Assembly: GCA_947625905.1 (NCBI GenBank)
Contig: CANQQJ010000004.1
Location: 1 to 64,000, forward strand
DNA length: 64,000 nt
Reading direction: 5' to 3'
Source: an uncultured Clostridia bacterium
GTDB lineage: Bacteria; Bacillota; Clostridia; Monoglobales; Monoglobaceae
The position numbers and the translations under genes were made by a program. Positions 3,806-43,696 of the stretch are shown in pieces. Position 1 is the first letter of the stretch, and every line of letters begins with the position of its first letter. Below the pieces are notes generated by a model. That model saw nothing but the letters and a program-made list of their open reading frames with translations. It was not told where the DNA came from and did not search any database.

Positions 3806-4170
3806 CTTTTACGTTAAAAACGGCAGTAGATAACTTTCGTAAACAATGGGATTGGATAGCTGATGAAACACTACAGCGGAAACGGAAAGTTGCGAAAAGC
3901 GAGTATTTTGTTGCGCATGGTATTTCAAATATTCCATTAATGGAGTGTTATTTATGTGAGTTTAGTACGGGGTGTGATGTCTGCCCTGTTAAATGGGGTG
4001 GTAAACTCAATTTTTGCATTAACAGAAATGCAAACTTGGATAACAAGGGGCTTTTGGCGCAATGGAAATATACCAAAAATTACAAAAAAGCAGCGCGTCT
4101 GGCGCGAAAGATTGCGAACTTACCGTTGAAGAAAAAATACAGAGAGGAGTACGAAAATGCGATTGATTGA
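3802..4170 (+). CDS. Cys-rich phage protein, unknown function
   Basis: 122 aa, basic at the C-terminus. A cluster CYLCEFSTGCDVCP plus a later Cys (NFCINRN) suggests zinc binding. It overlaps the methyltransferase by 4 bp and the next gene by 14 bp, so it is part of the same early transcript. I do not recognise the family. Confidence 0.65.
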   Translation: MTFTLKTAVDNFRKQWDWIADETLQRKRKVAKSEYFVAHGISNIPLMECYLCEFSTGCDVCPVKWGGKLNFCINRNANLDNKGLLAQWKYTKNYKKAARLARKIANLPLKKKYREEYENAID

Positions 4171-4477
4171 CGCGGACAAGTTAAGAGAACATTGGCTTGA
4201 AAACGGTCGAAATGAAAAAATTTACGATACAAATGATTTTTTGAATTCCATTGACGAGCAAGAGACTGTTGACGCGGAATCCGTGAGGTACGGCAAATGG
4301 GTTTTTGTAGAACCCGGCGCAGTATGGTGTTCTGAATGTGGCATGGATAGCTCGTTGTGCGATGCCGAGACAACAGATGAAACTAAAAGGCGAATTGCCA
4401 ACGGAGAAACACCTAATTATTGTCCAAACTGTGGCGCGAAAATGGATTTAGGTGTGAATTATGAAAGGGAGCAATAA
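4157..4477 (+). CDS. Small zinc-ribbon phage protein
   Basis: 106 aa. It begins MRLIDADKL, an N-terminus shared by many small Firmicutes phage proteins, and has two Cys pairs: CSECG and, near the C-terminus, YCPNCGAKMD. These pairs make a zinc ribbon likely. It lies between the Cys-rich gene and the DNA polymerase with 3-nt spacing to the polymerase start. The specific role is unknown. Confidence 0.65.
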   Translation: MRLIDADKLREHWLENGRNEKIYDTNDFLNSIDEQETVDAESVRYGKWVFVEPGAVWCSECGMDSSLCDAETTDETKRRIANGETPNYCPNCGAKMDLGVNYEREQ

Positions 4478-4480
4478 ACA

Positions 4481-6310
4481 ATGTTAAATTTCTATGATTT
4501 TGAGGTATTTAAATATGATTGGTTGGTTGTAATAGCTAATCCTATCGAAAAGACCGAAAAGGTAATTGTTAATGACAAAAAAGCGTTAGAAGAATATTAT
4601 AACGCTCATAGCGCACAAATTTTCGTTGGCTACAACAGCCGAAATTACGACCAATACATCATGAAAGCTATACTTTGCGGATTCAATCCTAAAGAAATGA
4701 ATGATTACATAATTGTTAAAAAACAACGTGGCTATACTTTTAGCCGATTGCTTAATAAATTTCCTTTAAACAATTATGACGTTTTTAAATATGCAACGGA
4801 CCACGGATTAAAAACACATGAAGGTTTTATGGGTAACAATATTAAAGAAACTTCTGTACCTTTTGATATAGACAGAAAATTGACTAAAGCGGAGCTTGAC
4901 GAAGTAATAAAATATTGTACACACGATGTATCACAAACTATGGAAGTTTTTATGCACCGTAAAAGTGAATTTGACGCTAAGTTTGAACTTATTAAAATGT
5001 TCAAATTACCGCTATCATACATAGGTAAAACAGACGCACAACTTACAGCAATAATTCTTGGCGCACGTAAACAAGAACGTGATGATGAATTTGATTTTGA
5101 ATTACCGGAGACATTACAAGTCAAAAAATATCAATACGTAGTTGATTGGTTCAAATCCGCTAAAGCTGATTGCACCAAAGAAATGAAAGAAAAATATGCG
5201 GCTGCCAAACGGGAATATGATGTCGAAACATCTATGCTCCATAGACATAAACTACGTGCCACAATGGAAAAATACGACTGGACAAATAAAGAAGCGTGGT
5301 CTAAATATTTTTATGACCGCTCTTTAGAAACTACAATAGCCGGAGTTCCCCACACTTTCGGTTGGGGTGGGATTCATGGGGCAAAACTCAAATATAGCGA
5401 TTCCGGCTTTTTTGTAAACATGGACGTAAATTCTTATTATCCTTCGTTAATGATATGTTACAATTGGTTATCACGCAATGTATCTGACCCGACTAAATTT
5501 AAAGAGATTTATGACAACCGAATTGCTTATAAGGCAGCCAAGAACCCGCGCCAAGCACCTTTGAAGCTGATTCTTAATACAACATTTGGTGCAAGCAAAG
5601 ATAAATTTAACCAACTGTACGACCCGCGCCAAGCAAATAATATATGTGTTGGTGGACAACTTTTATTGCTTGATTTAATTGAAAAAATAGAGCCTTATTG
5701 TGATATTGTTCAATCCAATACAGACGGTATTCTTGTAAAGATTGATAATCAAAACAATATTGATATTATAGATGATATTGTATATGACTTCGAGCAGCGT
5801 ACCGGTATGACTTTTGGGTTTGATGTATACCGTAAAGTGTTTCAAAAGGACGTAAATAATTATGTTATCGTAGACAAACATGGTCACTATAAATCCAAAG
5901 GTGCATATGTAAAAAAGTTGTCTGAACTTGATAATGATTTACCCATAATAAATACAGCAATGATTGAATTAATGCTGCACGGCACACCGCCGGAAGTTAC
6001 TATAAATAAGTGCGACGATTTAAAACAGTTCCAAAAAATTGTGCATTTAAGTGATAAATATGGTATTTCACTTCATAACGGCAAAAAATTATCAGATAAA
6101 ACTTTTCGGGTTTTTGCGAGCGTTGATATTGATGACGGTGCTATATATAAACAAAAGCAGGGTAAAAATCCCGAAAAATACGCTAATACCTCTGAGCATT
6201 GTTTTATTGATAATGGTGATGTAAATAATAAATCAATTCCCGAATTGCTTGACCGACAATGGTATATTGATTTGGCAAAAAAACGTTTAGCGCAATTTGG
6301 TATTTTATAA
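4481..6310 (+). CDS. Family B-type phage DNA polymerase
   Basis: 609 aa. The N-terminal 3'-5' exonuclease shows YDFEVF (D6, E8), GYNSRNYDQYIM and a later YCTHDVSQT motif. The polymerase domain shows motif A DVNSYYPSLM (D315), motif B KLILNTTFG (K362) and motif C NTDGI (D415). The protein is compact compared with cellular family B enzymes and has no uracil-reading N-domain that I can see. It follows the zinc-ribbon gene and precedes the primase-helicase, so it copies the phage genome during replication. Confidence 0.85.
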   Translation: MLNFYDFEVFKYDWLVVIANPIEKTEKVIVNDKKALEEYYNAHSAQIFVGYNSRNYDQYIMKAILCGFNPKEMNDYIIVKKQRGYTFSRLLNKFPLNNYDVFKYATDHGLKTHEGFMGNNIKETSVPFDIDRKLTKAELDEVIKYCTHDVSQTMEVFMHRKSEFDAKFELIKMFKLPLSYIGKTDAQLTAIILGARKQERDDEFDFELPETLQVKKYQYVVDWFKSAKADCTKEMKEKYAAAKREYDVETSMLHRHKLRATMEKYDWTNKEAWSKYFYDRSLETTIAGVPHTFGWGGIHGAKLKYSDSGFFVNMDVNSYYPSLMICYNWLSRNVSDPTKFKEIYDNRIAYKAAKNPRQAPLKLILNTTFGASKDKFNQLYDPRQANNICVGGQLLLLDLIEKIEPYCDIVQSNTDGILVKIDNQNNIDIIDDIVYDFEQRTGMTFGFDVYRKVFQKDVNNYVIVDKHGHYKSKGAYVKKLSELDNDLPIINTAMIELMLHGTPPEVTINKCDDLKQFQKIVHLSDKYGISLHNGKKLSDKTFRVFASVDIDDGAIYKQKQGKNPEKYANTSEHCFIDNGDVNNKSIPELLDRQWYIDLAKKRLAQFGIL

Positions 6311-30621: not shown

Positions 30622-30945
30622 TTACATTCCGGGTATTATGTCTTTAATACCTTTTGCTATGTTTGCCGCGCGTTTCATCAGCGAGTTTTCCTCTAAATAT
30701 TCAATGCCTTTGAGGGTTATTCGCAAATTGCTGATAGATAAAACTCTATCGCCCTGAGCGCCGTATTTCACCTCAACGCCCGTAATATATCCGTTGCTTA
30801 CAAGCATTTCCAATATGCTTACCCATAGGTTCTCGCTTATTCCCAGAGCCTTGTCCGATATGAAATCAATATCTGCTTCTTCGTAATTCATAGCCTCTCT
30901 AAGATACTTTAATATTTTATATATAGCTTTCAAATCCTCGGTCAT
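30622..30945 (-). CDS. YjcQ-family winged-helix-like phage protein
   Basis: 107 aa from ATG 30945 (GGAGGTG upstream). The pattern YKILKYLREAMNYEEADIDF and a C-terminal RITLKGIEYLEENSLM, ending IKDIIPG, matches YjcQ-type proteins, small winged-helix proteins of phages and prophages. It lies as a separate unit flanked by terminators inside the late region, so it may be an accessory gene with its own regulation. Confidence 0.75.
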   Translation of the reverse strand: MTEDLKAIYKILKYLREAMNYEEADIDFISDKALGISENLWVSILEMLVSNGYITGVEVKYGAQGDRVLSISNLRITLKGIEYLEENSLMKRAANIAKGIKDIIPGM

Positions 30946-30969
30946 ATATTTCACCTCCGCGCATAATAA

Positions 30970-30995
30970 AAGCACCTAATATTTCATAGGTGCTT
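30970..30995 (-). terminator. Terminator after the 31-kb structured RNA
   Basis: The minus-strand stem AAGCACCTA / TAGGTGCTT with an 8-nt loop is followed by TTTATT. It closes the MuF 3' untranslated region. Confidence 0.78.
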
Positions 30996-31009: not shown

Positions 31010-31155
31010 ATTGAAAAACCGCCTTGATTTCTCAAAGCGGTATAATATTGCTGTTTGGCAGGCGTACCCATCTCCTGCGTCTCTCAGGGGAAAACCCTTG
31101 TCAGTACCATCAGCGTGTGGTCGGTACGAAATCTACCACCTCAAACAGCTCTATT
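31010..31155 (-). ncRNA. Candidate structured 3'-UTR RNA, copy A
   Basis: Begins about 25 nt after the MuF stop and ends before the terminator. Minus-strand stems: P1 GCTGTTTG (31149-31142) with CAAACAGC (31057-31050); P2 GCAGG/CCTGC (31078-31074 with 31062-31058), directly next to the P1 3' arm; P3 ACCGCTTTGA-GAAA-TCAAGGCGGT (31041-31018), a 10-bp stem with a GNRA loop. Inside P1 there are further hairpins (GTACC...GGTAC, and AGGG/CCCT near 31090). A second copy near 40.9 kb keeps P1, P2 and P3 with compensatory changes. It could contain a 25-codon frame, but that frame is not kept in the second copy. Confidence 0.6.
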
Positions 31156-31178
31156 AACATATGTTTATTGTATCATAT

Positions 31179-32600
31179 TTATTCTTTTTTGTAAAGTATT
31201 TTTTTGTTTTTTATACATCTTTTCCACTCTTTATCTTTTATTTTTAAAAAAGTAATGATTGAGTTTTTATAATGTTCCGGGTCATTTTTTGTCTTTAAAC
31301 GTAATATCAGTTGGAATTTTTTATTGTTTTCACTTATACTTTTAAGGACAAATGCGGTATCAGGTTTATTTGCTTCGAGAATATAATCAGGGTCGTTTAA
31401 GATTTTAGGAATATATTCACCATATCTTTCGTAATCATTCGGATGTCGTTCTTTTATATGTGTTATTTGGTTATCTGTAATAATAACATCCTCAGTAACT
31501 ATATCCTTAGTTACACATTTATATATTTCCCTGTCTATTTTCCCGACATAATTCACATCATTTCCCGCCGTTTCAACCTTTTTCTTTATTATACTACTAT
31601 CTCCCGATTTGTCAACTGTTTTTGACGGTTCTTTTTTCGTAACCTCTGCATATTCTTCGGGCGTCAACCAGTCATGTTCTATAAAGCAACGACAATTAAT
31701 GTCATGCCCCGCAACACCGCTTTGCAATGGAGCCTTTGATTTAACACCACTACCCAAATCAAACAATTCGTTTGTAAGTACGGTTTGACCTTCCATTTTT
31801 ACATGATTTGGAGCGTTCGGCTTAGATTTATATGTTTTCCAACCTGATTTTGTTTTGACGCGTCTTTGTGGACGCACTCTCTCATCTTTCATTGTACGCC
31901 ACGTTTTAACGCCAATCAAACCGCTTGAACCGTTTTTAATAACCGTGTCAATCTCATTTGCACTGTCATCAAGACCCATTTCAAGAACTCTGCGGCTTTC
32001 GGTTCTCGCAACGCGAATAGCCTTAGTATAATTAAACTCACAGCTATCGGAAATACGTTTTGCAATTGTGGAATATCTGTCACCGTATGATAACCCGATT
32101 CCGACTTGCTGTTTTATGTCATAGATTATTTCACGCCGTCTTTTTTCAAGCCTATCCGGAAGTGTTAATCCGCTTACCGGGTTTAACACCGCGCGGCGCA
32201 ACACTTCCGGGCGAACCGCTTTTACAGTTTCAAGCTCTTTTTGAACATCGGAAACCTTTTTTGTTTTTATAACGGCGTCAACCAGTCCGGCATAAACAGC
32301 TTTGTATGTATTATTTACAAGTGATGTTATTTCGGCTCGTGTTTCCGGTGTAAAAGAATCTATATGTTTTTCTGTTTCTTCAAGGAAACGCGCGTATCTG
32401 CCTTTACCGTATAAAACATCAAAAGTCAAAACATCATCTTCGGCGTTATTTGCGTATTCCATAGCCAAAAAAGCAATTAGGTCTTTTCGCAATGCTTGAT
32501 AAATACGTCTTATATTTTTTTCTGCGTTTTTCAAGCGGTGTTCTTCAATTCGCCTTAATTGAACCTCATATGCTCGTAATGTTTTTTCGGAAATAGGCAT
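31179..32600 (-). CDS. MuF-type head morphogenesis protein with C-terminal nuclease-like toxin domain
   Basis: 473 aa. The MuF core is visible as VARTESRRVLEMGL, TWRTMKDERVRPQ and GVAGHDINCRCFIEHDW. After a Lys/Glu/Ser linker (about 335-360) comes a C-terminal domain: TDNQITHIKERHPNDYERYGEYI, then DPDYILEANKPDTAFVLKS and a Lys-rich end. This resembles the barnase/EndoU/colicin-type (BECR-fold, PBECR) nucleases that are often fused to MuF. MuF proteins enter the capsid with the DNA, so a toxin part may be injected into the new host. No clear immunity gene is adjacent. Confidence 0.8.
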   Translation of the reverse strand: MPISEKTLRAYEVQLRRIEEHRLKNAEKNIRRIYQALRKDLIAFLAMEYANNAEDDVLTFDVLYGKGRYARFLEETEKHIDSFTPETRAEITSLVNNTYKAVYAGLVDAVIKTKKVSDVQKELETVKAVRPEVLRRAVLNPVSGLTLPDRLEKRRREIIYDIKQQVGIGLSYGDRYSTIAKRISDSCEFNYTKAIRVARTESRRVLEMGLDDSANEIDTVIKNGSSGLIGVKTWRTMKDERVRPQRRVKTKSGWKTYKSKPNAPNHVKMEGQTVLTNELFDLGSGVKSKAPLQSGVAGHDINCRCFIEHDWLTPEEYAEVTKKEPSKTVDKSGDSSIIKKKVETAGNDVNYVGKIDREIYKCVTKDIVTEDVIITDNQITHIKERHPNDYERYGEYIPKILNDPDYILEANKPDTAFVLKSISENNKKFQLILRLKTKNDPEHYKNSIITFLKIKDKEWKRCIKNKKILYKKE

Positions 32601-35997: not shown

Positions 35998-36655
35998 AAT
36001 ATCTGTTTAATTCATCTATCGTCAAATATTCCTCGGAAAAAGGCACATTGATTTTCTTATAGAACTCTCGACGTGCCTTTTCATCGGGAAATACCAAAAC
36101 CGAATACCAATCAAGGCTATTTTTATTATTCATATCATCAACACTTGCGCTTCGTGCGTTCTTAACATCATTCAGCTTGTCTTTTGTTTCAAGAACTTTG
36201 TCGCCCTCGTATAACTCGGTAAAACGTTCATCGCCGTCAAACATCAAAGCTACATCGGTATCATCAAAGCCCAATTCGTCAAATTCAATATCATTGTCAA
36301 GAATTAATTCGCTCAACATATCCAAATCCCAAACGCCTTGCATTGAAGGATTGTTAAGCTGCACATTTAATATCTTTTCTTTGCGCTCGTCAACATCAAT
36401 GACACAAACATCAAGAGAATAATTTTGCGACCGCTCTAAACTATCAAGCTGTGATAGACGTTGATGTCCACCCACCAAATTACCGGTTCTTTTATTCCAA
36501 GTAATAGCAGATACTAAGCCATGTTCTTTAAGACCGTTCTTTAAACGTTTCCGGGCTTCATCATCAATAATGCGCGGATTATATTTCGCGTTCTTAATGT
36601 CAGAGCGATTAATTCTTTCAAAAGTAAAGTTTTGATATTTCGATTTATTTTCCAT
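35978..36655 (-). CDS. ParB-like N-terminal (IbrB-type) protein
   Basis: 225 aa from ATG 36655. The ParB/sulfiredoxin-like core shows AKYNPRIIDDEA, GLKEHGLVSAITWNKRTGNLVGGHQRL and DLDMLSELI. No HTH or partition partner is seen. It overlaps the upstream PAPS-reductase-like gene by 11 bp. This pairing matches the IbrA/IbrB arrangement of phage-borne genes. Whether it regulates, modifies DNA or defends is unknown. Confidence 0.8.
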   Translation of the reverse strand: MENKSKYQNFTFERINRSDIKNAKYNPRIIDDEARKRLKNGLKEHGLVSAITWNKRTGNLVGGHQRLSQLDSLERSQNYSLDVCVIDVDERKEKILNVQLNNPSMQGVWDLDMLSELILDNDIEFDELGFDDTDVALMFDGDERFTELYEGDKVLETKDKLNDVKNARSASVDDMNNKNSLDWYSVLVFPDEKARREFYKKINVPFSEEYLTIDELNRYFNSSTE

Positions 36656-37310
36656 ACACTTCAAACCTCTTAACACCCGCTCCGGCGTGTGGGTATAATT
36701 CTAAGATTTTCTTATAATCATCAGGGTACATATCTTTTATTATTTTCAATTCCCGCCCTGCAAGGGAACGGAAAGAAAAACCTAATTCACGTTGTTCCCG
36801 ACTTAAATATAACTTGTGTAAAGTTATATATTTCATAACATCTTTCTTTTTCCAAAATGCCAACGGGAAAAATCTACCGCGTTTATAATCCACACTCCCG
36901 CTTTTCTTTATCATAGCATTTCTAACAATGCTGTCTGCACAACGTTCACCGGCAGCTATCCAATGAATTTGTGTTTCATTTCGCAAATAATCATATACAT
37001 CATTAATTGTGATTATAGGCACTTCAAAATCAAAGTTCCGAAAGGTACCATACTTCATAAATTCCGAGACTTCAAAATGTGGTAAACGTATAATTTCCGA
37101 ATTATACTTATTTTCATACCACCGCAACATTCTTTCTTGAAATTCTAAACCGGGTACTAAATACATGAAAAATGCCTTAACCGTTTTGAAGTACCTATAA
37201 CACAAATCCAAGCAAACTATACTGTCTTTACCGCCACTAAAAGCAACAATTACACTATCTGTAATAGTTGAATGTTTCTTTATTGGGTCAAATAAAAGAT
37301 TATTACTCAC
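36645..37310 (-). CDS. PAPS reductase / ATP-pyrophosphatase-like (IbrA-type) protein
   Basis: 221 aa from GTG 37310 (AAAGGTGG upstream). The PP-loop SGGKDSIVCLDLC is near residue 25, and a C-terminal SLAGRELKIIKDMYPDDYKKI segment follows. The family includes sulfate reduction enzymes, tRNA thiolases, DndC and IbrA. Coupled to the ParB-like gene, it is more likely a phage modification or regulatory enzyme than a sulfur assimilation enzyme. Confidence 0.82.
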   Translation of the reverse strand: MSNNLLFDPIKKHSTITDSVIVAFSGGKDSIVCLDLCYRYFKTVKAFFMYLVPGLEFQERMLRWYENKYNSEIIRLPHFEVSEFMKYGTFRNFDFEVPIITINDVYDYLRNETQIHWIAAGERCADSIVRNAMIKKSGSVDYKRGRFFPLAFWKKKDVMKYITLHKLYLSREQRELGFSFRSLAGRELKIIKDMYPDDYKKILELYPHAGAGVKRFEVYGK

Positions 37311-37311
37311 A

Positions 37312-37470
37312 TTAACCACCTTTACCGCCTAAAGAACGGCGTCTTTTTGCAGCAGCACCAAGCATACCACTTTGAGCAAAAACACGAGCGGACACAGCAG
37401 CAGATTTCTTAATCTGAGTGCGGCGAACCAGTCCAGTACTTCTTGCTATATTACCTCTTGTAGTTGGCAT
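37312..37470 (-). CDS. 52-aa basic protein, unknown function
   Basis: A short frame from ATG 37470 with GAGGTGTAATAT upstream; stop at 37314-37312 just before the next start. The product is rich in Arg, Ala, Gly and Lys (SAAVSARVFAQSGMLGAAAKR, then RRSLGGKGG) and likely binds nucleic acid. It sits between terminase small subunit and the IbrA-like gene. No family recognised. Confidence 0.55.
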   Translation of the reverse strand: MPTTRGNIARSTGLVRRTQIKKSAAVSARVFAQSGMLGAAAKRRRSLGGKGG

Positions 37471-38045: not shown

Positions 38046-38108
38046 ATGAACTCTTTCAACAATGACATATTAACACATAATAGTGCGCCACAGTGCGCCA
38101 AGTTATAA
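38046..38108 (+). CDS. Possible 20-aa leader-like peptide
   Basis: ATG 38046 follows AAAGGAG with 8-nt spacing and gives MNSFNNDILTHNSAPQCAKL. It lies antisense in the late block and contains a direct repeat AGTGCGCCA. The ribosome binding site is good, but the frame is short, so it is only a candidate. Confidence 0.25.
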   Translation: MNSFNNDILTHNSAPQCAKL

Positions 38109-38504
38109 ATTTTGCAATTTTTGTAATGCGTATCCATGAAAACGTTGTACACTTCTTTCAGAGTAATTTGTTATGTTTGCTATTTCAAACCATTTTTTAC
38201 CTTGAAAATATTTTAGTCTTATTACAGTTCGTTCAATCGGCGGAAGTGTATCAATAATTGTTTCAATCTCAATACGTTTTTTGAGTAGAATATTCTTTTT
38301 TTCGGATAATTTTCTTTCTGTATCTATTAATCGACATATTAATTCTGACATTTTATCAGTATGTATATATTTACTTTTCGGCATATCGTTATATGTTTGC
38401 GCTTTTGTATACATGAGTGAAGTTTTTAAATCGCGGATTTCATCTTCTAAAGTCTGAATTTCGATAGAAATATCTCGTATTTCCTGTAATTCTTTCTTTG
38501 TCAT
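38103..38504 (-). CDS. Late transcription regulator (ArpU/sigma-region-4-like)
   Basis: 133 aa from ATG 38504 (GAGGTGAGGAT upstream). A coiled-coil N-terminal half is followed by a sigma region 4-like HTH: TLPPIERTVIRLKYFQGKKWFEIANITNYSERSVQRFHG. Such proteins lie immediately before terS in Firmicutes phages and activate late genes. Confidence 0.8.
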   Translation of the reverse strand: MTKKELQEIRDISIEIQTLEDEIRDLKTSLMYTKAQTYNDMPKSKYIHTDKMSELICRLIDTERKLSEKKNILLKKRIEIETIIDTLPPIERTVIRLKYFQGKKWFEIANITNYSERSVQRFHGYALQKLQNL

Positions 38505-38585
38505 ATCCTCACCTCGTAAAAATATTTGGTATCCGTATACAATCCGTATATATTTATAACACCTACTCGTAACACTTTTTAGCAT

Positions 38586-38986: not shown

Positions 38987-39373
38987 TTATGCTTGTTTTG
39001 CTTCTTTTATAAACGCTTGCGCTTCTTCAAGAGTAGCGAACCAATCATTATAAATATCTTTTCTGCGAAGATTTTTATATTTACTTAATGGTTTTTTTAT
39101 TGATTGAACCGTTGATGTAATACCCGCTGTAACCCTACCGTCATCATATATTGCTATTGTAACACAATAAAATGTTTTTAAGTTTTCGGGCGTAAGTTCC
39201 CATTCTTTGATTACATCATCAGGTAGAAGGCAACCAATTTCAAGATAACCCCATGCTTCACGGTCAATTTCTTTAATATAAATTTTTTCATCAAAATTAA
39301 CGATTTTTTCAAATTCATAATCGCTCGGATATGTTCCCGGCGTAATTGGTCTTTGTGTATTGTAGTATTTCAT
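38987..39373 (-). CDS. Hypothetical phage protein
   Basis: 128 aa from ATG 39373 with GGAAAGGAAAG upstream. It contains YYNTQRPITPGTYPSDYEFEK and a C-terminal LEEAQAFIKEAKQA helix. No family recognised. It is downstream of the DnaJ-like gene in the same unit. Confidence 0.55.
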   Translation of the reverse strand: MKYYNTQRPITPGTYPSDYEFEKIVNFDEKIYIKEIDREAWGYLEIGCLLPDDVIKEWELTPENLKTFYCVTIAIYDDGRVTAGITSTVQSIKKPLSKYKNLRRKDIYNDWFATLEEAQAFIKEAKQA

Positions 39374-39423
39374 AATATTTCTTTCCTTTCCGCCCGTCAT
39401 GCCGATAGCGCAGCATTTATTAT

Positions 39424-39882
39424 TTAAGCTGTTATGTATAATTTTTTGTAGCTCTTAATACGTTCCGAACCATGTAAATCACGAATTTCATCAAGTGTTA
39501 AATTTGAGTGTTTCGCGGTATCATCTGGAGAGTGCCAAACCCAAGCCTTTTTCTTACTTGCCCATTTAAAGCCTAATTCTTTAAGTTGGTCTTTAACCTC
39601 AAAAGCTCTGAAACACCAAACCCATGTGCCGATTATTTCAATATCGCAGTTGAAATTAATTATTTTATCAATGATTTCGCGATATTCAATATCATTTATG
39701 TGTTCTTTGCTTTCCGCGTTAAAACCCTCTAAATGCTCTTTTAAAAAATCATATTCATTGTTAATCGCTTTCATCGTCTCGGTGTTGCCACCTCTGTCGG
39801 GGTGATTTTCAAACGCTAATTTTTTATAACGTTTGCGCAATTCATCATAGGTTTTTACACCTGTAAAAAATTTAATGGTCAT
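39424..39882 (-). CDS. DnaJ-domain phage protein
   Basis: 152 aa from ATG 39882 (AAAGGCGG upstream). The J-domain is clear (YDELRKRYKKLAFENHPDRGGN, with HPD intact). The C-terminal part (LGFKWASKKKAWVWHSPDDT) is a small module often seen after phage J-domains. It may recruit host DnaK. Its promoter at 39915-39943 carries the ribbon-helix-helix operator. Confidence 0.8.
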   Translation of the reverse strand: MTIKFFTGVKTYDELRKRYKKLAFENHPDRGGNTETMKAINNEYDFLKEHLEGFNAESKEHINDIEYREIIDKIINFNCDIEIIGTWVWCFRAFEVKDQLKELGFKWASKKKAWVWHSPDDTAKHSNLTLDEIRDLHGSERIKSYKKLYITA

Positions 39883-39914
39883 ATTATAACCGCCTTTCAT
39901 GATTTGATATTAAT

Positions 39915-40800: not shown

Positions 40801-40842
40801 CAAACAGCAAAACCCGCGCAGATGCGCGGGTTTTGCTGTTTG
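40801..40842. terminator. Bidirectional terminator, 19-bp stem
   Basis: A perfect stem CAAACAGCAAAACCCGCGC / GCGCGGGTTTTGCTGTTTG with loop AGAT. It closes the acidic-repeat gene transcript after the structured RNA copy B. Confidence 0.88.
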
Positions 40843-40849
40843 CCATTAA

Positions 40850-40971
40850 GAACCTTCTTGATCTCTCAAGGCTGTATAAAATCCACATTTTGGCGGGTGT
40901 GCCCCATCCCGCATTTCTTTTGACCAAAGGGCGGCAGCCGCACATTCTCCGCTTCAAAATGCCGTTTTATT
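40850..40971 (-). ncRNA. Candidate structured 3'-UTR RNA, copy B
   Basis: Lies between the stop of the acidic-repeat gene (40984) and the 19-bp terminator. Minus-strand stems: P1 GCATTTTG (40962-40955) with CAAAATGT (40892-40885); P2 GCGGG/CCCGC (40912-40908 with 40897-40893); P3 CTTGA-GAGA-TCAAG (40870-40857), again with a GNRA loop. A GCGG/CCGC hairpin lies inside P1. Order and spacing are as in copy A at 31 kb, and base pairs differ in a compensatory way. Confidence 0.6.
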
Positions 40972-40983
40972 ATTATAGCGCAG

Positions 40984-41661
40984 CTATTGGGCGTCGCGTT
41001 TAGCCTTTTCGAGGGCCTCCATGTATTCCTTTTCGGTCTCATAGTCCTCGGGATATACATCGTAATCCCAGCCGTCCTCGCAATAGTCTCTCCACCAATA
41101 TTTTTCGTGCCAAACCTTTTCGGCTTCCTCAAGGGCGTTTTCGTATTCTTCCTCGGTCTCGTAGTCCTCGGGATATACATCGTAGTCCTCGCCGTCCTCG
41201 CAATAGTCTCTCCACTCGTACTTAGCTTCTTTAAGCGCGCTCTCAAATTCCGCCTTGGTGTCATAGTCCTCCGGATAAACATCGTAGTCGTAGATATCGT
41301 CGCTGACGCTTTTTATCCACTCTTCGCGAGCGTCACCGAGGGCTTCCTCATAATCTTCCTCGGTCTCATAATTCTTCGGGTCAACGCCGAATTCCGACCC
41401 GTCTTTGCAGTTTTCGCGCCATTTGTACCGAGCCTCCTCAGCCGCGTCATTTAAAGCATCATAATACTCATATTCATTCTCAAAATCCTCGGGGTCAAGA
41501 TCGAACTCTGAGCCGTCATAAGCATAAGTCCTCCAATCATCCTCGTCGGATTCTTTCTCGTCCTTTGTGACATCGAGATACAATTTGTGCGCAAGCCACC
41601 ACTCAAAGCCGTCCGTCTTGCCGTCATGGTTAAAATCAAACAAATCATCCAAAAAACCCAT
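40984..41661 (-). CDS. Acidic tandem-repeat protein
   Basis: 225 aa from ATG 41661 (GGAAAGGTG upstream). The N-terminus contains DFNHDGKTDGFEW, an EF-hand- or dockerin-like calcium loop. It is followed by about five repeats of roughly 32 residues of the form WRDYCEDGxDYDVYPEDYETEEEY..AL..A, each with one Cys. It is very acidic with no signal peptide. No family recognised; repeated Trp/Cys units suggest a binding scaffold. It is the first gene outside the prophage. Confidence 0.65.
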   Translation of the reverse strand: MGFLDDLFDFNHDGKTDGFEWWLAHKLYLDVTKDEKESDEDDWRTYAYDGSEFDLDPEDFENEYEYYDALNDAAEEARYKWRENCKDGSEFGVDPKNYETEEDYEEALGDAREEWIKSVSDDIYDYDVYPEDYDTKAEFESALKEAKYEWRDYCEDGEDYDVYPEDYETEEEYENALEEAEKVWHEKYWWRDYCEDGWDYDVYPEDYETEKEYMEALEKAKRDAQ

Positions 41662-41736
41662 TTTTATCACCTTTCCGGAGCCGAGACCCCGCCTTTATAA
41701 AAAGCGGGGTCCGATTTAATTATAGATTTTTTATGT

Positions 41737-43284
41737 TTATTTTCCCAGCGATTCCTTCGCGGAAACCACAACCTCTTTGTTGTAGCAGTCGAACATATTG
41801 TCAACCGCCTTGAGGTCCTTGGGCTTGCCCGTGAGCAGGCTTACTACCGGAACGATAACCAGTCCCGCCAGCATAGCTATAACACCGCAGTTAATGGGCG
41901 ATTTCAGGATCTCGGGGAAGATGCCGGGCGTCAGGATATTGAGTATCATAATGCCCGCGCCGAAGATAAAGCTTGCCCAAACCGAGATCTTGTTGGTTCT
42001 CTTCCAGTAGAGGCCGTACATGAACGGAGCGAGGAACGCGCCCGCCAGAGCGCCCCAGGAAATACCCATCATCTGGGCTATAGCGCTGAGCTTATCCTTG
42101 TTGAGCGCGATTATCGCGGATATGGCGATAAACATAACGATAAGTATTCTCATGATAAGAACCTGCTTCTTCTCGTCCATGTTCTTGATAACGTGGCCTT
42201 TGAGAAGATCGAGCGTCATGGTCGAGCTGGAAGCCAGAACCAGAGACGAAAGCGTTGACATGGAAGCCGAAAGCACCAGCACGATAACGACAGCAATCAG
42301 GATATCCGGAAGACCCGAAAGCATTGTGGGAATGATCGCGTCAAATCCGCCCTCGATGGCGCCGCCGGGCAGGAACGTGAGCTTGTCGGTGAAGAGTCTG
42401 CCGAATCCGCCGAGGAAGTAGCAGCCGCCCGCGACAACCAGCGCGAAGAATGTGGAAATAATAGTTCCCTTTTGAATGTCGTTCTCGCTCTTGATGGCGT
42501 AGAACTTCTGGACCATCTGGGGCAGTCCCCATGTGCCCAGAGAGGTGAGCAGCACAACGAACAGCAGTCCCAGCGGGTCGGGGCCGAAGAACGAGTTGAA
42601 CGCTCCGGGAACCCCTGTGGGCGCCTCGATGGCCGCAAGGCCGTTAAGAGCCTCGACAAAGCCGCCGTTCTGGACCAGCACCGCGGCGATTACCGCCACT
42701 ATGCCGAACAGCATGATTACACCCTGGATAAAGTCGTTTACAGCGGTCGCCATATATCCGCCCGCGATTACGTAAACGCCGGTCAGCACCGCCATTACGA
42801 TAACGCATACCGAGTAGTCGATCTTGGGGAACGCCATCGAGAAAAGTCTCGAAAGGCCGTTATAGAGCGACGCGGTATAAGGTATCAGGAATATGAACAC
42901 GATAACGGAGGCCGCTATCTTGAGAGCCGTGCTCTGATACCTTTTTCCGAAATACTCGGGCATCGTGGCGCTGTGCAGGTGCTGGGTCATAAGTCTGGTG
43001 CGCCGTCCGAGGATTATCCACGCGAGCAGTGAGCCGATGACCGCGTTTCCTATACCTATCCAAGACGAGGCGATACCGTATTTCCAGCCGAACTGGCCCG
43101 CGTATCCGACGAAAATAACCGCCGAGAAATACGATGTGCCGTACGCGAAAGCGGTGAGCCACGGGCCGACAGAACGTCCGCCGAGAACAAATCCGCTTAC
43201 GTCGGTCGAGTGCTTTCTGCAGTACAGTCCAACAGTGACCATAACCGCGAAGAAAACGATCAACAATCCGATTTTCAAAATCAT
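41737..43284 (-). CDS. Sodium:solute symporter (SSS family), T-box controlled
   Basis: About 515 aa from ATG 43284. It has 12 to 13 hydrophobic segments. SSS hallmarks are FVLGGRSVGPWLTAFAYGTSY in the first part, GYMATAVNDFIQG, and the sodium-site region SASMSTLSSLVLASSS. A T-box leader lies immediately upstream, so the substrate is probably an amino acid; the likely specifier codon suggests tyrosine or an aromatic compound. An ATG four codons upstream abuts the ribosome binding site and is less likely. Confidence 0.82.
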   Translation of the reverse strand: MILKIGLLIVFFAVMVTVGLYCRKHSTDVSGFVLGGRSVGPWLTAFAYGTSYFSAVIFVGYAGQFGWKYGIASSWIGIGNAVIGSLLAWIILGRRTRLMTQHLHSATMPEYFGKRYQSTALKIAASVIVFIFLIPYTASLYNGLSRLFSMAFPKIDYSVCVIVMAVLTGVYVIAGGYMATAVNDFIQGVIMLFGIVAVIAAVLVQNGGFVEALNGLAAIEAPTGVPGAFNSFFGPDPLGLLFVVLLTSLGTWGLPQMVQKFYAIKSENDIQKGTIISTFFALVVAGGCYFLGGFGRLFTDKLTFLPGGAIEGGFDAIIPTMLSGLPDILIAVVIVLVLSASMSTLSSLVLASSSTMTLDLLKGHVIKNMDEKKQVLIMRILIVMFIAISAIIALNKDKLSAIAQMMGISWGALAGAFLAPFMYGLYWKRTNKISVWASFIFGAGIMILNILTPGIFPEILKSPINCGVIAMLAGLVIVPVVSLLTGKPKDLKAVDNMFDCYNKEVVVSAKESLGK

Positions 43285-43314
43285 TTTTTGAATCATCCTT
43301 TCTTTTTGCGGGCA

Positions 43315-43590
43315 AAACAAAAAACCCGCTCTCTATTTTTAAACAGAGGACGAGTTTCACCCGTGGTACCACCTCAATTCACCGCTGCCTCACGGCCGCG
43401 GCCTCAGAAGGTATCATCAATACCCATGTTCTGTGACGGGAACTCCCGTTGCAGCCTACTCGGGCGGCTCAAACCCTTTCGGTGCACTGCTCGCGAAATG
43501 TATTCGAAAACGCTTCCGCCATTGCCTCGCAGCTCCCGGCAACTCTCTTGAGACTTTCACGCATCTACTTGTTTCCGCTCAAACGCATTT
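43315..43590 (-). promoter_or_regulatory. T-box riboswitch leader of the symporter gene
   Basis: The minus strand contains GAGGTGGTACCACG (T-box/antiterminator core) at about 43374-43361, followed by a terminator stem CTCGT-C-CTCT / AGAG-A-GCGGG and TTTTTT. Upstream lies a long structured leader with AGAGAG (Stem I) and GAGTAGG. The best specifier candidate is TAC (43502-43500) in GAATACATTTCGCGAG. The variable base of TGGT pairs with an A discriminator base, as in tRNA-Tyr. The amino acid is a tentative call; the T-box itself is clear. Confidence 0.88.
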
Positions 43591-43696
43591 ATATATAGTA
43601 TAATTATATTAACATAAATCTTTGATTAATGCAAGAAAAATTTTTATAAAAAATAAAAATTTTTACAATTCCCGACGCAAGCCTCGAATGCATAGA

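Follow-up and report, generated by a model that had tools for sequence, protein, structure and literature searches.

Skipping-rope RNA as the probable RNA antitoxin of PBECR nucleases in phages and bacterial genomes

Skipping-rope RNA, a small structured RNA, probably acts as RNA antitoxin (immunity RNA) against PBECR nucleases, which it would bind and block. Across the loci sampled, the gene of a predicted PBECR2 nuclease nearly always carries such an RNA (in the following also called rope) right behind it, and the RNA is therefore probably the toxin's antidote. This interpretation originates from two RNA copies on the minus strand of a 64,000-nt stretch of DNA from an uncultured Clostridia bacterium (GCA_947625905.1, contig CANQQJ010000004.1, positions 1 to 64,000; referred to as the window), and it builds on gene linkage, an asymmetry between toxin and RNA, promoter and terminator signals, a selected structure with kissing loops and tRNA-like junction lengths. 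While the RNA family itself is already known (Rfam RF02924), its partner and role appear to be new. No link between skipping-rope RNA and a toxin was found in the full texts searched, a corpus with subscription papers and most preprints outside, and the family is named in PMC7779021, PMC8501573, PMC11507696 and PMC7682815, in the pertinent parts of which no tie to a toxin was found.

Both copies exceed the gathering score of the Rfam covariance model (36.7), copy A (locus L005) additionally reaches 53.7 bits with R1, a covariance model built from 41 ropes, and the window's genome holds six skipping-rope copies altogether. The two related minus-strand structures of the original prediction, located near 31010-31155 and 40850-40971, are thus present, and selection for structure, occurrence in more than one copy and a terminator behind the elements are supported as well. 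Although the class had been described as unrecognised, comparison with Rfam revealed that RF02924 already covers the motif, and a new RNA class was rejected with both copies above the cut-off. Such a prior description had been named as grounds against the original prediction; it exists for the motif but not for the function, the Rfam line reading only 'Gene; sRNA'. The founding paper of the family is reportedly one by Weinberg and others from 2017. In sequence and structure, the window copies are the same as the Rfam family, with no structural difference. A pseudoknot, expected for RF02924 and named for skipping-rope in the legend of Fig. 3 in PMC7779021, is present as a loop-loop pairing in A and B, although Rfam's own pairing may differ. 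Regarding individual stems, the claimed P1 and P2 pairings occur in the sequence of both copies, including the P1 changes between them (T-A/A-T, G-C/T-A and G-C/G-U). The letters of the claimed P3 are likewise there, yet in copy A they constitute the stem of the Rho-independent terminator, and in copy B the predicted fold of that stretch pairs differently. Moreover, the element had been placed directly after a stop codon, whereas the actual distance is 29 nt for copy A and 21 nt for copy B.

Table 1 Features of the window around the two skipping-rope copies
Feature	Position	Strand	Basis
MuF minor capsid protein with C-terminal nuclease domain, 473 aa	31179..32600	-	PF04233 and PF18810
PBECR2 domain, predicted BECR-fold RNase toxin	31182..31556	-	PF18810
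Sigma-70-type promoter of copy A	31167..31195	-	TTTACA-17-TACAAT, TG before -10 (extended -10)
Skipping-rope RNA copy A	31050..31149	-	RF02924 44.1 bits; P1 8 bp, three hairpins, kissing loops
Rho-independent terminator of copy A	31018..31041	-	10-pair stem, 4-nt loop, T tail
TATAAT, -10-like hexamer before copy B	40972..40977	-	-35 poor, 8/12 matches (L006)
Skipping-rope RNA copy B, second subtype	40885..40962	-	RF02924 42.6 bits
Strong hairpin behind copy B	40801..40842	-	sequence; part of it folded

Support for the structure comes from the family alignment, as single-sequence folding alone differs only weakly from shuffles (z -1.31 for A and -0.98 for B), and the minimum-energy fold of copy B keeps P1 while lacking both the originally claimed P2 and the family's inner hairpins. 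In 112 ropes aligned with R1 (111 distinct rows), 89.3% of the paired cells are kept as pairs compared to 69.6% after shuffling, and double-sided changes occur at 20 of the 23 pairs. The covariation score of these 112 ropes, in an alignment that is fitted to the model, amounts to 0.534 versus 0.155 for shuffled sequences, with 0 of 500 shuffles reaching 0.534. Pairing is kept in 97.2% of cells in P1, 94.8% in hairpin 1 and 98.9% in hairpin 3; hairpin 2 is variable, its inner pairs being kept in 51.2% of cells and its closing pair in 95.5%. Two of the hairpins had been missed by the original prediction, as had a covarying kissing-loop pseudoknot between hairpins 1 and 3 (CGUACC/GGUACG in A, UGUGC/GCACA in B). 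Duplex scores average 14.06 across 93 unique loop pairs, compared to 9.40 when loops are re-paired (300 re-pairings, standard deviation 0.27, maximum 10.04).

The gene in front of copy A, adjoined by portal and terminase genes, encodes a MuF protein matching PF04233 at residues 161-306 (E 2.8e-11, 44.6 bits versus a cut-off of 29.6) and PF18810, PBECR2, at residues 353-471 (E 1.6e-13, 51.3 bits versus 27.1). In 50 PBECR2 sequences, T27, H33, N98 and Y122 are invariant and S99 is conserved in at least 90%. A ToxN-type family was not detected by Pfam, which returned PBECR2, PBECR3, Phage_Mu_F and a weak MuF_C match; the PBECR domain has no sequence match in the PDB, PADLOC gave no match, and the PHROG match is a family of unknown function. 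PBECR domains are predicted BECR-fold RNases for which RNA targets are discussed (PMC5512222), and for MuF toxins, packaging into the phage head and delivery to bacteria have been hypothesised (PMC5576092); the window gene encodes such a protein. The parts of PMC5576092 concerned with MuF toxins expect small immunity proteins, and neither there nor in the corresponding parts of PMC5512222 is an RNA partner named.

Linkage from toxin to RNA was determined with a protein profile, A1, derived from seven sequences that are all rope-linked. It yielded 108 PBECR2 loci, comprising 28 viral contigs and the best 80 of 137 genome relatives, of which L125 and L200 were left out with PBECR frames cut by the contig end. 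At 105 of the 106 testable loci, the R1 search placed a rope no more than 250 nt from the stop codon, mostly about 30 nt behind it, a result which speaks for this subfamily, as the sample originates from rope-linked seeds and includes some near-duplicates or contigs shared with other samples. Protein sampling of the viral contigs used the PBECR2 profile A1 only, leaving PBECR3 aside. None of the 106 loci is without any rope, since in the sole exception, L105, a 623-aa transposase-like frame lies between the toxin and a rope 2.3 kb on. About 160 bp of the toxin 3' end flank this insertion (3382-5490 of L105) on both sides; long target duplications are known for some IS elements. Other R1 matches in the 618 kb searched were only second copies, the displaced rope of L105 and a match in L126 cut by the contig start. 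Upon spot-checking with Rfam, the rope was confirmed at 11 of 11 loci, ten of them from the 108 and the eleventh being L241, which at the limit used is the single PBECR hit among 50,697 phage records and again has its rope about 30 nt behind the stop codon.

Scans of 398 genomes from the phylum detected RF02924 in 28 (27 above the cut-off), PF18810 in 14 and PF18812 in 21. Rope and PBECR2/3 co-occur in 17 genomes, 12 have only the rope, 6 only PBECR and 363 neither (Fisher p 1.4e-17); one genome counted as having both, G395, had lost its rope to the fast filter and regained it in a closer look at PBECR loci only, so that omitting it gives 16 with both and 7 with PBECR only. Two RF02924 places (G343:C6 and G279:C104) were left out of the locus examination. 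By a hand count from the tables, 20 of 23 PBECR loci with a compact frame of less than 600 aa have a rope adjacent; at G429 the rope is 1.9 kb off, G382 matches weakly, and G373 is located close to the end of its contig. None of five large polyvalent PBECR proteins (693-2356 aa) comes with a rope. As controls, the 28 rope-bearing genomes were inspected for other genes: none of 67 ParE places lies within 300 nt of a rope (the nearest being about 0.4 kb away, G279:C8), and of 12 MuF places the only ones that close are the two that have PBECR, a third being 0.7 kb from rope L001.

Three loci (L126, L134 and L190) display the order toxin-RNA-toxin-RNA, and ten further loci of the 108 carry a second rope without a toxin directly behind the first. 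At L139, six tRNA genes on the opposite strand (3875-4488, minus) come as close as about 270 nt to such a double rope. For six of six array toxins, their own RNA is nearer to the RNAs of the ten closest toxin relatives than the neighbour's RNA is, with a small margin for one L190 toxin (0.754 versus 0.722). RNA and protein distances correlate with r 0.69 over 111 unique proteins (0 of 2000 permutations) and with r 0.30 over 96 proteins within the A1 family, a correlation that is not decisive because linkage alone would give it.

Viewed from the RNA, a PBECR frame is adjacent at 26 of 53 rope loci from the window's own genome, its relatives and the phylum, and absent at 27; these loci are not independent because relatives share orthologous loci, and flanks are short in a few (L043, L045). 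The assumption that the RNA is attached to unrelated genes is not supported, as the choice of neighbour is far from random and about half of the ropes adjoin PBECR nuclease genes. RNA patterns alone retrieved 26 viral contigs (22 plus 4), 14 of which have no adjacent PBECR, with the two nearest frames per side tested on the 22; the 26 include near-duplicates (L210/L213/L225, L234/L235), and the patterns favour one rope subtype. The pattern of another subtype retrieved no viral contig, while of the rope queries one gave no plasmid and another no phage record. Copy B (L006) has no PBECR frame within 1.5 kb. Together with L001, it belongs to the subtype whose toxins sit at L007, L010 and L241, and a toxin of this subtype was not found in the window's genome (94% complete), which holds only 30-32% relatives. 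Additionally, the RNA is kept beside broken-looking partners at 5 of the 26 PBECR-adjacent loci (L025, L027, L036, L042 and L053). At L244 (G005), a toxin of the copy B/L001 subtype has lost its second half together with the RNA, and the sequence behind the break looks like half a terminator. Such a pattern is predicted by a toxin-antidote pair, in which the toxin would depend on the RNA but not vice versa.

These observations also bear on the possibility that the rope serves PBECR as substrate or cofactor or switches its activity, e.g. as an RNA processed into a regulator. Tight pairing and subtype matching would look alike in this case, but RNAs persisting without a toxin and beside broken toxins are unexpected for an RNA serving the enzyme, which renders this explanation unlikely compared to an RNA antitoxin.

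The RNA antitoxin would mostly be made from its own promoter and end at its own terminator, next to the nuclease gene. The promoter of copy A, with 10 of 12 matches, overlaps the last codons of the toxin gene, and its -10 starts 23 nt before the rope, the same distance as in many other ropes. In 116 upstream regions, selected from 170 for low mutual identity, a promoter score of at least 10 of 12 is reached by 71.6% compared to 2.8% of shuffled ones, the -10 being mostly positioned 22-27 nt ahead of the rope start. Terminator-like hairpins stand behind 67% of ropes versus 3.7% in simple shuffles, and the hairpin behind copy B is symmetric enough to terminate from both sides. Furthermore, at L029, L053, L226, L236 and L237 the toxin gene is convergent with the rope, so that their 3' ends face each other from opposite strands (positions for L236 and L237 were converted by hand). 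The original prediction had read the structures as 3'-UTR elements, and a cis-acting element stabilising or terminating the mRNA of the preceding gene would fit the rope's usual position on the same strand, a short way past a stop codon and frequently ahead of a terminator. Copy B is the case nearest to this view: its own promoter is weak, and read-through is possible from the gene in front (40984-41670, minus), which encodes an acidic protein with repeated 'YDVYPEDYETEEEY'-like units and gave no Pfam match above the cut-off. Copy A with its extended -10 promoter, the strong promoters of most ropes inspected, the five ropes on the strand opposite to their neighbour, the orphan ropes and those inside tRNA arrays all argue against a cis-acting role, which is accordingly improbable.

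For polymorphic toxins, a small immunity ORF usually lies directly downstream (PMC5576092), and the YjcQ gene (30622-30975) indeed comes after copy A. YjcQ could hence be the immunity factor and the RNA a bystander. The same genome, though, encodes a second MuF protein (L228, 1053-2453) without PBECR2/3 match and also followed by YjcQ, so that YjcQ seems tied to the MuF position, and the downstream frames of solo PBECR loci (e.g. L002, L004, L007, L010 and L014) differ by eye; an immunity role of YjcQ in place of the RNA is therefore very unlikely. This second MuF protein has an HExxH-like HEVGH in its C-terminal part, and behind its gene, besides YjcQ, stands the orphan rope L001. That ropes are folded-DNA recombination sites of the attC type shuffling toxin cassettes, as their position at the 3' end of swappable genes and the same rope beside different neighbours (L002 versus L019/L023) might suggest, is hardly credible in view of the promoter and terminator signals around them, their covarying kissing loops and the orphans in tRNA arrays.

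Some findings speak against the antitoxin role, namely the polyvalent PBECR proteins and the three compact loci with no rope adjacent, the roughly half of ropes that have no PBECR, and ropes next to other genes. The ropes of L019 and L023 are near-identical to that of L002 but have a different neighbouring gene. A rope stands 21 nt behind a HEPN/nucleotidyltransferase pair in L032 (791-1479) and 5 nt behind a weakly HicA-like gene in L039 (1190-1495), and ropes may thus serve other toxins, too. In L213, L225 and L210, the gene before the rope appears sigma-like by eye, with no toxin in the tested frames, and L213 and L225 hold two tandem ropes. The motif TTGTAACACTATCTTAA, whole, cut or as near variant, occurs shortly behind the rope terminator in L004, L012, L015, L016, L018 and L021, and, with or without toxin, it possibly marks an insertion border.

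Several orphan ropes of phages are found next to tRNA genes. One is situated between tRNA-Asp and tRNA-Trp (L207), another directly after tRNA-Leu without a gap (L218) and a third 40 nt after tRNA-His (L216), while in the Bacillus phages BSP36 and BSP14 an orphan rope lies 7 nt before tRNA-Arg; for other phage orphans, no tRNA is close by. At a distance of up to 100 nt, a tRNA was counted for 3 of the 14 PBECR-free viral contigs versus 0 of the 12 with PBECR, both being small numbers. The rope itself is laid out like a tRNA: in 112 of 112 aligned ropes, 2 nt separate P1 from hairpin 1, 1 nt hairpins 1 and 2, and 4 nt hairpins 2 and 3, whereas the 5-bp hairpin 3 is flush with P1 (0 nt). The linkers of a canonical tRNA measure 2, 1, 4-5 and 0 nt, its T-stem has 5 bp, and its D-loop and T-loop are in contact. 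The rope junction lengths hence agree with the tRNA cloverleaf, a likeness read from the alignment, while P1 has 8 bp and the tRNA acceptor 7 bp. R1 allows insertions, so the constancy of the linkers is not forced, although it still leans to this model. Ropes are nonetheless not tRNAs, as the tRNA model RF00005 gave no match on them in the loci scanned, ARAGORN made no call on the viral-contig ropes checked, and none of 116 flanks has a CCA in the 6 nt following P1. The cloverleaf layout rather suggests that the RNA mimics the toxin's substrate.

If the RNA antitoxin acts in this manner, the window nuclease, as C-terminal domain of a MuF protein proposed to enter with phage DNA, would be the toxic part, and the rope would neutralise it by direct binding, thereby protecting the producer, a lysogen or a bystander. 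Copy A would protect the lysogen against the toxin of its own prophage, and copy B, an orphan of the other subtype, against a related toxin of other phages. A tRNA-shaped decoy would fit a tRNA-cutting enzyme, with tRNA as the presumed target. Somewhat more tentatively than the antitoxin role as such, ropes could therefore be viewed as tRNA-shaped decoys, serving as immunity RNAs against tRNA-cutting PBECR toxins delivered by temperate phages, with the orphans forming a shared pool of immunity and counter-immunity; this extended version is plausible, with odds slightly below even. Phage tRNAs are themselves proposed to resist tRNA-cutting defences (in the relevant part of PMC10264068), and some orphan ropes lie among phage tRNA genes, although, as mentioned, they are no tRNAs.

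Among known systems, type III toxin-antitoxin pairs (ToxIN, CptIN, TenpIN) would likewise combine an RNase toxin with a structured, pseudoknotted RNA, as far as described in PMC12373285, and the rope-PBECR pair would work like such a system. In contrast, type III toxins belong to the ToxN/AbiQ family and follow tandem RNA repeats located upstream with a terminator in between, whereas the partner here is a PBECR domain, and the rope, mostly a single copy, stands after the stop codon or convergent to the gene and has its own promoter. As the toxin family and the upstream repeats both fail, the pair is not assigned to type III. The nearest proven parallel found is AbiF/RCd22 from a Clostridioides difficile prophage, where, according to the respective part of PMC12373285, a prophage-borne Rfam motif RNA (abiF motif, RF03085) neutralises the neighbouring toxin in cis and in trans. 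This toxin is an Abi_2/HEPN-type protein, however, and its RNA lies upstream and displays two hairpin motifs but, in the same account, no cloverleaf layout.

The linkage described above provides an Rfam family of unknown function with a protein partner as well as a directly testable role. If the antitoxin role holds true, a second toxin fold would be added to RNA antitoxin systems, and polymorphic phage toxins could have RNA instead of protein immunity. This could account for solo PBECR genes that lack an obvious immunity gene and would hint at the role of some non-tRNA genes in phage tRNA arrays. Decoy ropes, in turn, would represent an RNA-based toxin-immunity family separate from ToxIN, with an orphan pool located in chromosomes, in prophages and within tRNA arrays of other phages.

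Further genes of the window were annotated between and beyond the two copies. On the far side of the terminase, a PAPS-reductase-domain gene (36645-37319, minus) and a sigma-70 region 4 gene (38103-38585, minus) are located. The prophage region also contains a small gene with a DarA_C domain (38987-39400, minus), known from defence against restriction, beside which a gene at 39424-39900 has a DnaJ match just below the cut-off. Finally, a T-box leader (43343-43592, minus; RF00230, 100.8 bits) has its end about 20 nt ahead of the gene for a sodium:solute symporter (41737-43320).
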